From: a bacterium
GTDB taxonomy: Bacteria; Patescibacteriota; Patescibacteriia; 2-12-FULL-60-25
Direction of reading: 5' to 3'
Assembly (NCBI GenBank): GCA_021796435.1
Contig: JAJYXM010000016.1
Span: 874,625-938,624, forward strand
Length of the DNA stretch: 64,000 nt
The notes beneath the pieces were generated by a model. The model saw only the letters and a program-made list of their open reading frames with translations, did no database searches and was not told where the DNA came from. This document shows, piece by piece, positions 42,759-61,161 of this stretch. Position numbers and translations under genes: made by a program. Every line of letters begins with the position of its first letter. Position 1 is the first letter of the stretch.

Positions 42759-42803
42759 GTTTCACACCGCCCTTGGTTCGACACTACACATTCCCTGTAA
42801 CAG

Positions 42804-42835
42804 AAATACCGACGGAACAAATCCCGTCGGTATTT
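42804..42835 (-). repeat. Second copy of the tRNA-Trp terminator hairpin
   Basis: AAATACCGACGG/CCGTCGGTATTT, identical to the hairpin after tRNA-Trp at 43690-43721. It is also followed by the same CCATGGCAGGGGCT that forms the 3' end of tRNA-Trp. The shared block is about 48 bp and flanks an ~880-bp segment holding the DHFR-like gene. Confidence 0.85.
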
Positions 42836-42837
42836 CC

Positions 42838-42890
42838 ATGGCAGGGGCTCGTGGAAGACGTTCGGACGCTGGTAATGGTGGAGATGTCAG
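42838..42890 (-). pseudogene. Decayed tRNA-Trp 3' fragment
   Basis: ATGGCAGGGGCT matches the encoded CCA end and acceptor of tRNA-Trp exactly. Downstream similarity fades (CGTGGAAGACGTTCGGACGCTGGTAATGGTGGAG aligns loosely with the T-arm and anticodon-stem part). No complete cloverleaf can form. Confidence 0.5.
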
Positions 42891-42909
42891 GTGCATTTTC
42901 CATCGGCCT

Positions 42910-43461
42910 TCATGCAGCGTAACTCAAAAGGACGTTTCCGTTACCGAATTTTTTTGTTTCGATAAGTGTTAGTTTTTTGGTTTTTTCTACGGTTGAGAAA
43001 ACTGTTCTCCCTTTCCCTAGAATCACCGGATTGACAATGAATCGGAACTCGTCGATCACGCCAAGAGGGAAGAGTTGTTCGATTATTTTCCCACTCCCAA
43101 AAATCGCAATGTCTTTGCCGGGCATCTCTTTCATTTTTTGGATATCGTCGGCATTGATCTCATTCAGAATTGTCGAATTGTTCCAGAGCTTTTTTTCTTG
43201 ACCCTTTGAAAAATAAACTTTCTTCAGTGCGTTCATCCTGCTTGCGACACGCGGATCGTCCCTCAGCGCCGCCTCTGTGGGCCAGTAACTCGCCATGAGT
43301 TCATAGGTCACACGGCCGAACAACAGAGTGTCGATGGTGTCGAGAAACGCCGCCGCCATCTCGTTGAATTCCGCGTCGACATTGTGCCAGTCGATTTCGC
43401 CGTTGGGGCCGCAAAAAAATCCATCAACGGAAAGCATTTCTTGAACAATAATTTTTTTCAT
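42910..43461 (-). CDS. Dihydrofolate reductase-like (RibD C-terminal) protein
   Basis: A 183-residue protein of the RibD_C/YwjB/YyaP family. It starts KKIIVQEMLSVDGFFCGPNG, with TLLFGRVTYELMASYWP (NADPH-site strand and helix), VYFSKGQEK, IAIFGSGKIIEQLFPLGVIDEFRF and GKGRTVFSTVEK. Such proteins are predicted NADPH-dependent reductases with unknown substrates; they are too divergent to call FolA. It lies between two copies of the tRNA-Trp terminator and 3' end, so it looks like cargo of an insertion at that tRNA. Confidence 0.85.
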   Translation of the reverse strand: MKKIIVQEMLSVDGFFCGPNGEIDWHNVDAEFNEMAAAFLDTIDTLLFGRVTYELMASYWPTEAALRDDPRVASRMNALKKVYFSKGQEKKLWNNSTILNEINADDIQKMKEMPGKDIAIFGSGKIIEQLFPLGVIDEFRFIVNPVILGKGRTVFSTVEKTKKLTLIETKKFGNGNVLLSYAA

Positions 43462-43550
43462 ATTCTCAGTATAACATTCTTTGAGAAGTTCTACTCCTTC
43501 TTGGCCCCCTACGAAAAAAAGCCACGTGGTTACGCGACAATTTACGTGAC

Positions 43551-43673
43551 AGGGGCTGTAGGAACGTCACTCGCTTCGCTCTTGGGAACCCCTCGGTTCC
43601 CAGTTCGCTGCGCTCACTCCCTCCGCCACGGGAACCTACCGGTTCCCATCGCCCTCCCCGTTCGATTCCTACA
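43551..43673. repeat. tRNA-Trp-associated palindromic element
   Basis: The left end, AGGGGCTGTAGGAA (43551-43564), copies the 3' part of tRNA-Trp. The right end, TTCGATTCCTACA (43661-43673), is its T-arm in inverted orientation; TGTAGGAA and TTCCTACA pair. Inside lie CACTCGCTTCGCTC and two hairpins, GGGAACC-CCTC-GGTTCCC (43584-43601) and GGGAACC-TACC-GGTTCCC (43630-43647). The same plan is found at the tRNA-Tyr locus with different but paired bases. No gene is supported in 43462-43724. Confidence 0.7.
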
Positions 43674-43689
43674 CATCTCGCCGTAATAG

Positions 43690-43721
43690 AAATACCGACG
43701 GAACAAATCCCGTCGGTATTT
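43690..43721 (-). terminator. Terminator of tRNA-Trp
   Basis: A 12-bp stem, AAATACCGACGG/CCGTCGGTATTT, with the loop AACAAATC, ends three bases from the encoded CCA of tRNA-Trp on the minus strand. Confidence 0.8.
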
Positions 43722-43724
43722 CCA

Positions 43725-43798
43725 TGGCAGGGGCTGTAGGAATCGAACCTACGTCGCTGGTTTTGGAGACCAGCGTCCTACCATTGAACGAAGCCCCC
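43725..43798 (-). tRNA. tRNA-Trp (anticodon CCA)
   Basis: It folds as a complete cloverleaf of 74 nt including the encoded CCA. The acceptor is GGGGGCT/AGCCCCT (one G-T pair), the anticodon stem CTGGT/ACCAG with loop CTCCAAA (anticodon CCA), and the T-arm GTAGG TTCGATT CCTAC. The discriminator base is G. It is followed by its terminator at 43690-43721. Upstream, only three bases separate it from the end of a GIY-YIG gene, which implies processing from a common transcript or an unseen promoter inside that gene. Confidence 0.95.
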
Positions 43799-43801
43799 TT
43801 G

Positions 43802-44053
43802 CTACGATCTTTCACCCAACCTTTTCAGCAAACCTACATATGAAGAACCGAACTGCTTAAGCTTACTTTCACGCTGTCTGGCCATAGCCTCCTCGGCATA
43901 TGCCTCATAGTAGATCAGCTCGATGGGTCGTCGATTCTTGGTAGAATCCACTGACCCATCTTGATGCTCTATTATCCTTTTCTGAATATCACCAGTAAAT
44001 CCAATGTAATAACCATTATCTACATGCGACCTGAGGACATATGTGAACCACAT
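43802..44053 (-). CDS. Small GIY-YIG nuclease domain protein
   Basis: An 83-residue single-domain GIY-YIG protein of the YhbQ/UvrC-like group. The motif is split as TYVLRS (GIY part) and GYYIGFTGD (YIG part), with RIIEHQDGS and ELIYYEAYAEEAMARQRESKLK following. The basic-residue helix and the Glu needed for metal binding (YYEAYAE) are present. Small members are predicted endonucleases with poorly known targets. The gene starts eight bases after a fragment of tRNA-Trp (CCAGCTACC TAATTTGT ATG on the minus strand) and ends three bases before an intact tRNA-Trp. This suggests that it homes to, or travels with, that tRNA. Confidence 0.85.
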   Translation of the reverse strand: MWFTYVLRSHVDNGYYIGFTGDIQKRIIEHQDGSVDSTKNRRPIELIYYEAYAEEAMARQRESKLKQFGSSYVGLLKRLGERS

Positions 44054-44065
44054 ACAAATTAGGTA

Positions 44066-44151
44066 GCTGGTTTTGGACCCCGCCGCTCGCGAGCAGCGGG
44101 ACTACCATTGCTTGCCCCGCCTTTCGCGAAAGGCGGCGGAACGAAGCCCCC
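44066..44151 (-). pseudogene. Broken tRNA-Trp 5' part carrying two GC palindromes
   Basis: The minus strand reads GGGGGCTTCGTT, then a perfect 20-nt palindrome centred on TCGCGA (44117-44136), CAATGGTAG, then a 22-nt near-perfect palindrome with the same centre (44079-44100), and TCCAAAACCAGC. The tRNA segments match intact tRNA-Trp; the palindromes sit in the D-arm and in place of GACGCTGGTC. The 3' half is missing. It cannot fold as a tRNA. Confidence 0.8.
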
Positions 44152-44285
44152 TTGCTATTTGTCCGCAGAGATTATCACCAATCCCTATGCCAATCAAGTA
44201 GTCAGGCCAGTATGCCGATGCCCTACCCTTGCAGAAACAGGCTTTTTGTGTAAAGTATTAATGTCCTTTCACTGCGAGGTTCGTG

Positions 44286-49188: not shown

Positions 49189-49252
49189 AAATTTTTTGGT
49201 TGTGTGATTTCTACTTACCGATTGACTACGGTTTACCCGCCTGCCGAACGCC

Positions 49253-49327
49253 TGGAGCCGGGAACAGGGATTGAACCTGCGACCCACGGTTTACAAAACC
49301 GTTGCTCTACCACTGAGCTATCCCGGC
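49253..49327 (-). tRNA. tRNA-Thr (anticodon TGT)
   Basis: A complete cloverleaf of 75 nt including encoded CCA: acceptor GCCGGGA/TCCCGGC, D-arm GCTCAGTGGTAGAGC, anticodon stem ACGGT/ACCGT with loop TTTGTAA (TGT), T-arm CAGG TTCAATC CCTG. The discriminator base is T. A partial tRNA-like 5' half lies directly upstream. Confidence 0.95.
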
Positions 49328-49384
49328 GCCCGGCGATTGGCGGGCAGGCAAAACCGTTGCACTACCGCTGAGCCGTGCGGGCTC
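49328..49384 (-). pseudogene. tRNA-like 5' half with palindrome
   Basis: The minus strand reads GAGCCCGCACGGCTCAGCGGTAGTGCAACGGTTTTG, matching the 5' half of tRNA-Thr(TGT) through the anticodon 5' bases. It then switches to GCCCGCCAATCGCCGGGC (49328-49345), an imperfect palindrome, and runs straight into the intact tRNA. The 3' half is missing. Nothing else is supported in 49385-49531. Confidence 0.7.
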
Positions 49385-60600: not shown

Positions 60601-60616
60601 TCACGTTTAACGTGAT
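60600..60616. repeat. TTRRA-loop hairpin 1
   Basis: ATCACG TTTAA CGTGAT; the minus-strand loop is TTAAA. It is one of four short hairpins of the same plan between 60.6 and 61.0 kb. Confidence 0.6.
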
Positions 60617-60744
60617 GGTGGGCAGGCAAGGATTGACCGCACTCGCTCCGCTCGCTTCACGAAAGGGCTCCCGCCCTCTCGTGAGCTCTCCCCTGCAACG
60701 GTGAAAACCTGCCGGTTTTCAAACTTTCCCTGTTCGAATCCTTG
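60616..60744. repeat. tRNA-Tyr-associated palindromic element
   Basis: The left end, TGGTGGGCAGGCAAGGATT (60616-60634), is identical to the 3' end of tRNA-Tyr (60787-60805). The right end, TTCGAATCCTTG (60733-60744), is its T-arm inverted; CAAGGATT pairs with AATCCTTG. Inside lie ACTCGCTCCGCTCGC, a CACGA-AGGGC hairpin (60657-60684) and TGAAAACC-TGCC-GGTTTTCA (60702-60721). The plan matches the tRNA-Trp element, with paired base changes. No gene is supported here. Confidence 0.7.
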
Positions 60745-60756
60745 CAATGCAGATAT

Positions 60757-61062: not shown

Positions 61063-61161
61063 TCCGTTGTCGGGATTTGAACCCGAGACCTCCCCGGTGG
61101 CCACCGGGGTGCTCTACGCCACGGGCTGATCCGCCTCTGGCGGAAGCTGAGCTACAACGGC
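61063..61161 (-). pseudogene. tRNA-Thr copy with palindromic D-loop insertion
   Basis: The minus strand keeps GCCGTTGTAGCTCAGC, GTAGAGC and the whole T-arm TCGGGTTCAAATCCCGA of tRNA-Thr(GGT). A 27-nt insertion with the hairpin TCCGCC-TCT-GGCGGA (61130-61144) interrupts the D-loop. The anticodon arm has become CCCCGG-TGGCCA-CCGGGG, with no usable 7-nt loop. The acceptor ends ACAACGGAGAA, with a G1-A72 mismatch and no CCA. It cannot work as a normal tRNA. Confidence 0.8.

Follow-up and report, generated by a model that had tools for sequence, protein, structure and literature searches.

Small GIY-YIG nuclease genes flanked by broken and intact tRNA genes in Patescibacteriota suggest a tRNA-directed class of selfish element

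In a 64,000-nucleotide stretch of a Patescibacteriota genome (contig JAJYXM010000016.1 of assembly GCA_021796435.1; hereafter, the window), a gene encoding a small GIY-YIG nuclease separates two copies of tRNA-Trp, one broken and one intact. Small GIY-YIG genes abound in these genomes and have no assigned role, and the arrangement raises the question of whether the nuclease is involved in breaking one tRNA and supplying the other. The first-pass annotation of the window had proposed that an insertion split the tRNA after its anticodon stem and brought a replacement copy with it.

The tRNA-Trp locus and its nuclease

Analysis of the locus corroborated the annotated order. On the minus strand, the broken tRNA-Trp is followed by 12 bases, an 83-aa GIY-YIG open reading frame, the intact tRNA-Trp and a terminator, and only three bases (CAA) separate the TAG stop of the nuclease from the start of the intact tRNA. 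ARAGORN makes a single call on the locus, the intact tRNA-Trp (43725-43798), and does not call the broken copy. The shared block that had been noticed ahead of both tRNA copies is part of an exact 19-bp direct repeat (43786-43804 and 44139-44157), which flanks both hairpins, the tRNA-Trp pieces and the nuclease ORF. Since this repeat takes in 6 bp of tRNA leader (TAGCAA), the TAG of which is the nuclease stop, the stop codon of the nuclease is itself part of the duplicated block. The features of the locus, in minus-strand order, are:

44139-44157, minus: 19-bp direct repeat, copy 1 (leader TAGCAA and tRNA-Trp 5' end), broken copy
44111-44139, minus: palindromic hairpin with core CCGCCTTTCGCGAAAGGCGG, in the D-arm of the broken tRNA-Trp
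44102-44110, minus: tRNA-Trp positions 14-22 of the broken copy
44078-44101, minus: second palindromic hairpin, in place of the 5' strand of the anticodon stem
44066-44077, minus: tRNA-Trp positions 32-43 of the broken copy
43802-44053, minus: small GIY-YIG nuclease gene (83 aa, PF01541) of the tRNA-Trp-linked clade
43786-43804, minus: 19-bp direct repeat, copy 2, its TAG being the nuclease stop codon
43725-43798, minus: intact tRNA-Trp (CCA), the only tRNA-Trp found in the genome
43689-43723, minus: terminator hairpin of the intact tRNA-Trp
43660-43673, minus: inverted tRNA-Trp T-arm (reverse complement of positions 51-64)
43566-43659, minus: hairpin-rich repeat body, recurring 3' of other tRNA genes in the same genome
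43547-43565, minus: 3' tRNA-Trp piece, starting at about position 55
43512-43546, minus: second terminator 3' of the intact tRNA-Trp
42803-42848, minus: third partial copy (tRNA-Trp 3' end and 35-bp terminator), beyond the RibD_C ORF

The broken copy does carry the tRNA 5' end, but it is not the plain 5' part that had been described: two palindromic hairpins interrupt it, separating positions 1-13 from 14-22 and 14-22 from 32-43. Past the terminator of the intact tRNA, an inverted T-arm and a hairpin-rich body lead to a partial tRNA-Trp, comprising its 3' part, and a second terminator (together 43512-43565); these two resemble the corresponding end of tRNA-Trp and its terminator in a genus relative, G001 (82%). 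Because hairpin insertions and a 3' piece are both present, one split after the anticodon stem is an oversimplification, and the locus points to several events. The third partial copy ends in a 35-bp terminator (42803-42837) identical in sequence to that of the intact tRNA-Trp. Between these two identical terminators with their tRNA 3' ends (42803-43723, minus) lies a RibD_C (dihydrofolate reductase-like) gene (42910-43461), a possible cargo of a larger tRNA-end duplication.

The 83-aa protein matches PF01541 with 49.2 bits, well above the curated cut-off of 22.6, and presents the catalytic residues Y5, Y16, G18, R26 and E62. Among members of its clade (see below), all five catalytic positions (Y, YxG, R, E) are intact in 107 of 110, so these proteins are probably active nucleases. 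They are small (~80-90 aa) and consist of a single GIY-YIG domain, with no separate DNA-binding domain; the nearest solved folds include the structure-specific SLX1. The UPF0213 structures 1zg2 and 1ywl are likewise single-domain GIY-YIG proteins of similar size and sequence profile, but the YhbQ-like subfamily forms a clade apart in these genomes, mostly without tRNA linkage. The source genome contains 14 PF01541 matches, and five of its GIY-YIG genes adjoin a tRNA accompanied by broken copies of the same tRNA (Val-GAC, Arg-GCG, Pro-GGG, Trp and Phe), the nuclease copy at tRNA-Phe being frameshifted. Searches of phage and viral contig collections with the window protein and a consensus-like clade query returned no relatives, and a contig scan with a single protein as query yielded only four loci, one of them a copy of locus L068.

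Linkage of the nuclease clade to tRNA genes

The arrangement in the window is not a chance one, because the same pattern recurs at many other loci. Phylogenetic analysis of 80 small GIY-YIG proteins from 19 same-class relatives revealed a split into two clades (100/98). Within the clade of the window nuclease, 39 of 46 genes are tRNA-adjacent, compared with 4 of 34 among the remaining small GIY-YIG proteins of these relatives, comprising YhbQ-like ones and a subfamily with flanking inverted repeats (Fisher p = 3e-11). A profile of the clade found matches in 105 of 145 genomes sampled across the phylum, and 120 ORFs at 110 loci, representing the better-scoring matches rather than a random draw, were analyzed. 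Of these ORFs, 72 lie within 500 bp of a tRNA, against an expectation of ~8-9% from the background of 0.063 tRNA per kb (binomial p about 1e-45, related genes not being fully independent), and every linked nuclease (72/72) is co-oriented with its tRNA. Nineteen tRNA isotypes are represented phylum-wide. The enrichment near tRNAs that the first-pass reading had put forward as a check is very strong for this clade in both samples. The remaining 48 of the 120 clade members have no nearby tRNA; several in this unlinked subset (L107, L113, L129, L172 and similar) share the pattern YTGSTNNLRKR...YYEACLN...DAR.

A check outside the phylum covered three genomes, those of loci L103-L105. In Marivirga arenosa (Bacteroidota), the profile has six matches, five of which adjoin tRNA-Met, tRNA-Val or tRNA-Asn in the same orientation, four of these being arranged as tandem pairs, and a Chlorobiaceae genome presents one clade match, at tRNA-Asn. 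Tandem nuclease copies beside one or more tRNAs were observed at L070 (tRNA-Pro), L206 (tRNA-Ser) and, in Marivirga, L342 and L348. At L070, identical units of nuclease and tRNA piece lie 386 bp apart, recalling the segmental amplification driven by the phage nuclease SegB (PMC13096335).

The loci follow two mirror layouts, with the nuclease either 5' of the intact tRNA (layout I) or 3' of the intact tRNA and its terminator (layout II). In layout I, the ORF ends within 25 nt of the tRNA start at 45 of 58 loci and inside the tRNA at 21 of 58, and a broken piece of the same tRNA stands directly upstream of the nuclease at 46 of 58 (at most 1 of 100 shuffles). Layout II loci have a 3' piece of their tRNA beyond the nuclease in 18 of 56 cases and no piece in 38. 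Some pieces are exactly complementary halves, as in Gln (16-34 and 35-72), Val (1-22 and 23-59) and Pro (1-17 and 18-77). Of 125 breakpoints, 34 fall in stems, where 54 would be expected and 400 random draws gave no fewer than 35; the D- and T-loops are favored.

Isotype and layout were mapped onto a tree of the 110 tRNA-linked nucleases, which is built on few columns and leaves many forks open. On this tree, isotype changes 61 times (shuffled mean 79.4, minimum 74 of 500) and layout 17 times (shuffled mean 37.1, minimum 27). Because both track the nuclease tree, the choice of tRNA and the side of insertion are largely passed on with the nuclease, with frequent retargeting. The window nuclease itself clusters with three layout-I tRNA-Trp nucleases of other genera (97/84).

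Empty sites and tRNA pieces without a nuclease

Gene order is kept on both sides of many tRNAs in G001. At tRNA-Val(GAC), this relative has one tRNA and a terminator, constituting an empty orthologous site. The corresponding region of the source genome contains the intact tRNA, a terminator copy, the nuclease, tRNA positions 45-77 (a piece with its anticodon arm swapped for CCCCGGTGGACACCGGGG), a second terminator copy and the shared flank. The G001 site is also empty at tRNA-Phe (GAA), where, in the source genome, the flank shared on the upstream side runs into the broken 5' copy and the one shared on the downstream side comes after the outer 3' piece. Since G001 has orthologous empty sites, genome comparison shows insertion, with a regenerated tRNA, at the nuclease-bearing tRNA-Val and tRNA-Phe. 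Three genus relatives carry a single clean tRNA-Trp, 100% identical and without a nuclease, but in a different gene context, and no orthologous empty site for the Trp locus was found among the genus relatives compared. The proposed insertion with a replacement tRNA is thus borne out at Val and Phe, but the Trp locus itself offers only the nuclease-free relatives with their single tRNA. Presence of the nuclease is patchy, and the isotype involved differs between genomes of the same genus.

Broken same-strand pieces within 400 bp of a tRNA were found at 25 of 36 tRNAs in the source genome, 2 of 37 in G001, 5 of 37 in G005 and 12 of 40 in G041, with a shuffled expectation of 0 to 0.4. No clade member reaches E<=1e-9 in G005, and about 20 tRNAs in the source genome present pieces or nested copies without a nuclease. 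It follows from these counts that broken pieces are lineage-specific, and they occur also outside nuclease loci; because many nuclease-free tRNAs have them, not every locus requires the nuclease.

All four tRNA genes in the window have broken copies. Many tRNAs here share a recurring downstream unit comprising an inverted T-arm, variable hairpins and a direct copy of the tRNA 3' end at about +150, and a nuclease-free repeat with an inverted T-arm lies 3' of many tRNAs in both the source genome and G005. The unit behind tRNA-Trp is found again 3' of tRNA-Tyr (60616-60745, minus), with an inverted T-arm, a hairpin-rich body and a 3' tRNA-Tyr piece. A near-complete broken tRNA-Thr(GGT) (61064-61161, minus) presents a hairpin in the D-loop, and CCCCGGTGGCCACCGGGG takes the place of its anticodon arm; an almost identical hairpin stands in for the anticodon arm of broken Val and Arg copies elsewhere. 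No Rfam family matched the downstream repeat, which had been considered as a structural RNA or intron, and no intron family matched at 20 loci with tRNA pieces, one of them the Trp locus of the window. A consensus fold derived from a 13-row alignment, with the Lys row shortened by hand and arbitrary hairpin arms, is descriptive only.

At tRNA-Ile(GAT) and tRNA-Thr(TGT), an intact tRNA sits inside the anticodon loop of a split tRNA, bounded by terminal inverted repeats (CCTGCCCGCC and GGCAGGCGGG) and without a nuclease. The nested tRNA-Thr(TGT) (49253-49327) lies within a split, native-like tRNA-Thr (halves 49349-49382 and 49217-49235; 49217-49382, minus), where the genus relative has a single tRNA. 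Its outer halves resemble the tRNA of the relative and the inner tRNA differs, being identical to it at 60 of 75 positions. Import of a foreign tRNA by an element was considered by comparing pieces with inner and relative tRNAs, and fits only Thr-TGT. Because the pieces at Ile and other loci match the inner tRNA, local duplication is more likely than foreign import outside Thr-TGT.

A tRNA-directed element and alternative explanations

The linkage to tRNAs, the shared strand, the duplications, the empty orthologous sites and the intact catalytic residues make it reasonably probable, in our judgment, that this clade of small GIY-YIG nucleases constitutes selfish, tRNA-directed, homing-like elements, with an intact tRNA regenerated at each insertion. 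We infer cleavage, repair, co-transcription and mobility along the following lines. The nuclease would cut the tRNA gene, mostly in or beside a loop, and repair would copy or duplicate a segment containing the nuclease gene together with some or all of the tRNA. The nuclease would then be bracketed by direct repeats of the tRNA 5' part, when it lies upstream, or of the 3' part and terminator, when it lies downstream. One intact tRNA would be left after each insertion, as insertions destroying a single-copy tRNA would be lethal. Because the nuclease is always on the strand of its tRNA, it may be transcribed from the tRNA promoter, with RNase P releasing the tRNA behind it. The same process would also yield the hairpin insertions and the nuclease-free nested copies, as by-products or as miniature derivatives.

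This reading has three weak points: the intact target beside the gene, the nuclease-free pieces and the unlinked clade members (48/120). It further counts against the reading that a tRNA piece is missing from most layout II loci (38/56). An intact, identical tRNA persists next to the nuclease gene, and a purely tRNA-internal target would remain there; the logic of ordinary homing, in which insertion destroys the target, therefore needs an extra assumption. This problem would disappear if the target extended from the tRNA into its flank, 5' in layout I and 3' in layout II.

The nuclease-free pieces could instead reflect an unrelated process, combining palindromic repeat insertion and tandem duplication, that breaks tRNAs and creates places where small GIY-YIG genes merely settle. 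The flanks of tRNA genes are classic insertion hot spots, which favors such a process, as do the pieces and hairpin insertions at many nuclease-free tRNAs of the source genome and the nuclease-free inverted-T-arm repeat that this genome shares with G005. Passive settlement, however, does not sit well with isotype and layout following the nuclease tree, with all 72 linked genes lying on the tRNA strand, with ORF ends that abut or enter the tRNA, or with the lack of tRNA linkage in other small GIY-YIG clades of the same genomes, and we regard it as unlikely. We give still less weight to a host gene co-transcribed with the tRNA and acting in tRNA turnover, defence or the processing of structured nucleic acids, with the broken copies serving as leader or decoys. 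Strict co-orientation, conserved catalytic residues and the presence of SLX1 among the nearest folds agree with a host function, and the near-identical replacement hairpin in broken Val, Thr and Arg copies could signify one, but the patchy presence of the gene, differing by isotype between same-genus genomes, the use of 19 isotypes across the phylum and the frameshift in the nuclease copy at tRNA-Phe argue against it.

Integrative elements use tRNA genes as attachment sites and leave an intact tRNA and a displaced tRNA end, a likeness that extends to the insertions described here. The direct repeats of tRNA ends resemble attL and attR, and GIY-YIG enzymes are often intron-encoded, so the loci could be taken for remnants of integrase-type genomic islands or of group I introns in tRNA genes. 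We consider this origin highly improbable: the repeats of the window Trp locus enclose only an 83-aa ORF in about 350 bp, with none of integrase size, the repeats across loci duplicate tRNA 5' ends as well as 3' ends, and Rfam detected no intron at the 20 tRNA-piece loci.

A tRNA-directed homing-like element, the reading we favor, has its closest experimental precedent in SegB, a free-standing GIY-YIG homing endonuclease of phages T4 and T6 (PMC13096335). T6 SegB cuts inside tRNA genes at RAWTSGAAC, a motif resembling an inverted T-arm, and generates tandem copies of the tRNA together with its own gene, and the association of SegB with phage tRNAs was shown statistically (PMC13096335). Both systems place a small GIY-YIG nuclease beside tRNA genes, and by analogy a similar cut in the tRNA gene may be inferred here. 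The available part of that report nevertheless describes SegB in phage genomes, with no isotype favored and no split tRNA with a regenerated copy (PMC13096335), whereas the clade of the window nuclease resides in cellular genomes, its isotype and layout follow the nuclease clade, and its members are single domains of 80-90 aa. We group the window element with free-standing, SegB-like nuclease elements: the gene adjoins a tRNA, its putative cleavage target, there are empty alleles for Val and Phe, and target specificity is inherited to the extent that isotypes cluster on the tree, yet with many switches. A search of the literature outside subscription papers found the phage SegB work and no account of small cellular GIY-YIG genes associated with split tRNAs, and the nuclease family beside broken and intact tRNAs suggests a previously unreported class of selfish element.

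If correct, a tRNA-directed selfish cycle would give the whole clade a role, account for the tRNA debris and extend the phage SegB-tRNA association to cellular chromosomes. It predicts that each nuclease cuts the neighboring tRNA gene, and the approximately 110 nuclease-target pairs, spanning 19 isotypes, provide material on how one small domain shifts its target. It also calls for caution in annotation and in tRNA-based surveys of integration sites.

More tentatively, and on balance with some doubt, the loci may belong to an integrase-less class of mobile element comprising GIY-YIG-driven units and nuclease-free, palindrome-bounded miniatures, which would insert at tRNA loops and rebuild a whole tRNA each time. 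Such a class would have moved through the majority of the tRNA genes here and dispersed across the phylum, with relatives in Bacteroidota and Chlorobiota. REP/RAYT systems, in the available portions of the reports describing them, similarly combine a single nuclease-type gene with short palindromes scattered in one genome and nuclease-free derivatives, but RAYT is a tyrosine transposase rather than a GIY-YIG enzyme and REPs are extragenic, not in tRNA genes (PMC2817692, PMC3116915).

The other small GIY-YIG subfamily (TGVTNDL...GFTxKY; L010, L012, L014 and similar) is not linked to tRNAs and has inverted repeats such as GTCATCCCGG...CCGGGATGAC on its flanks. Inverted-repeat flanks exceeding all 60 shuffles were detected for 13 of 24 genes of this subfamily, compared with 10 of 114 tRNA-linked genes, and the subfamily looks REP-like, with a nuclease replacing the transposase.
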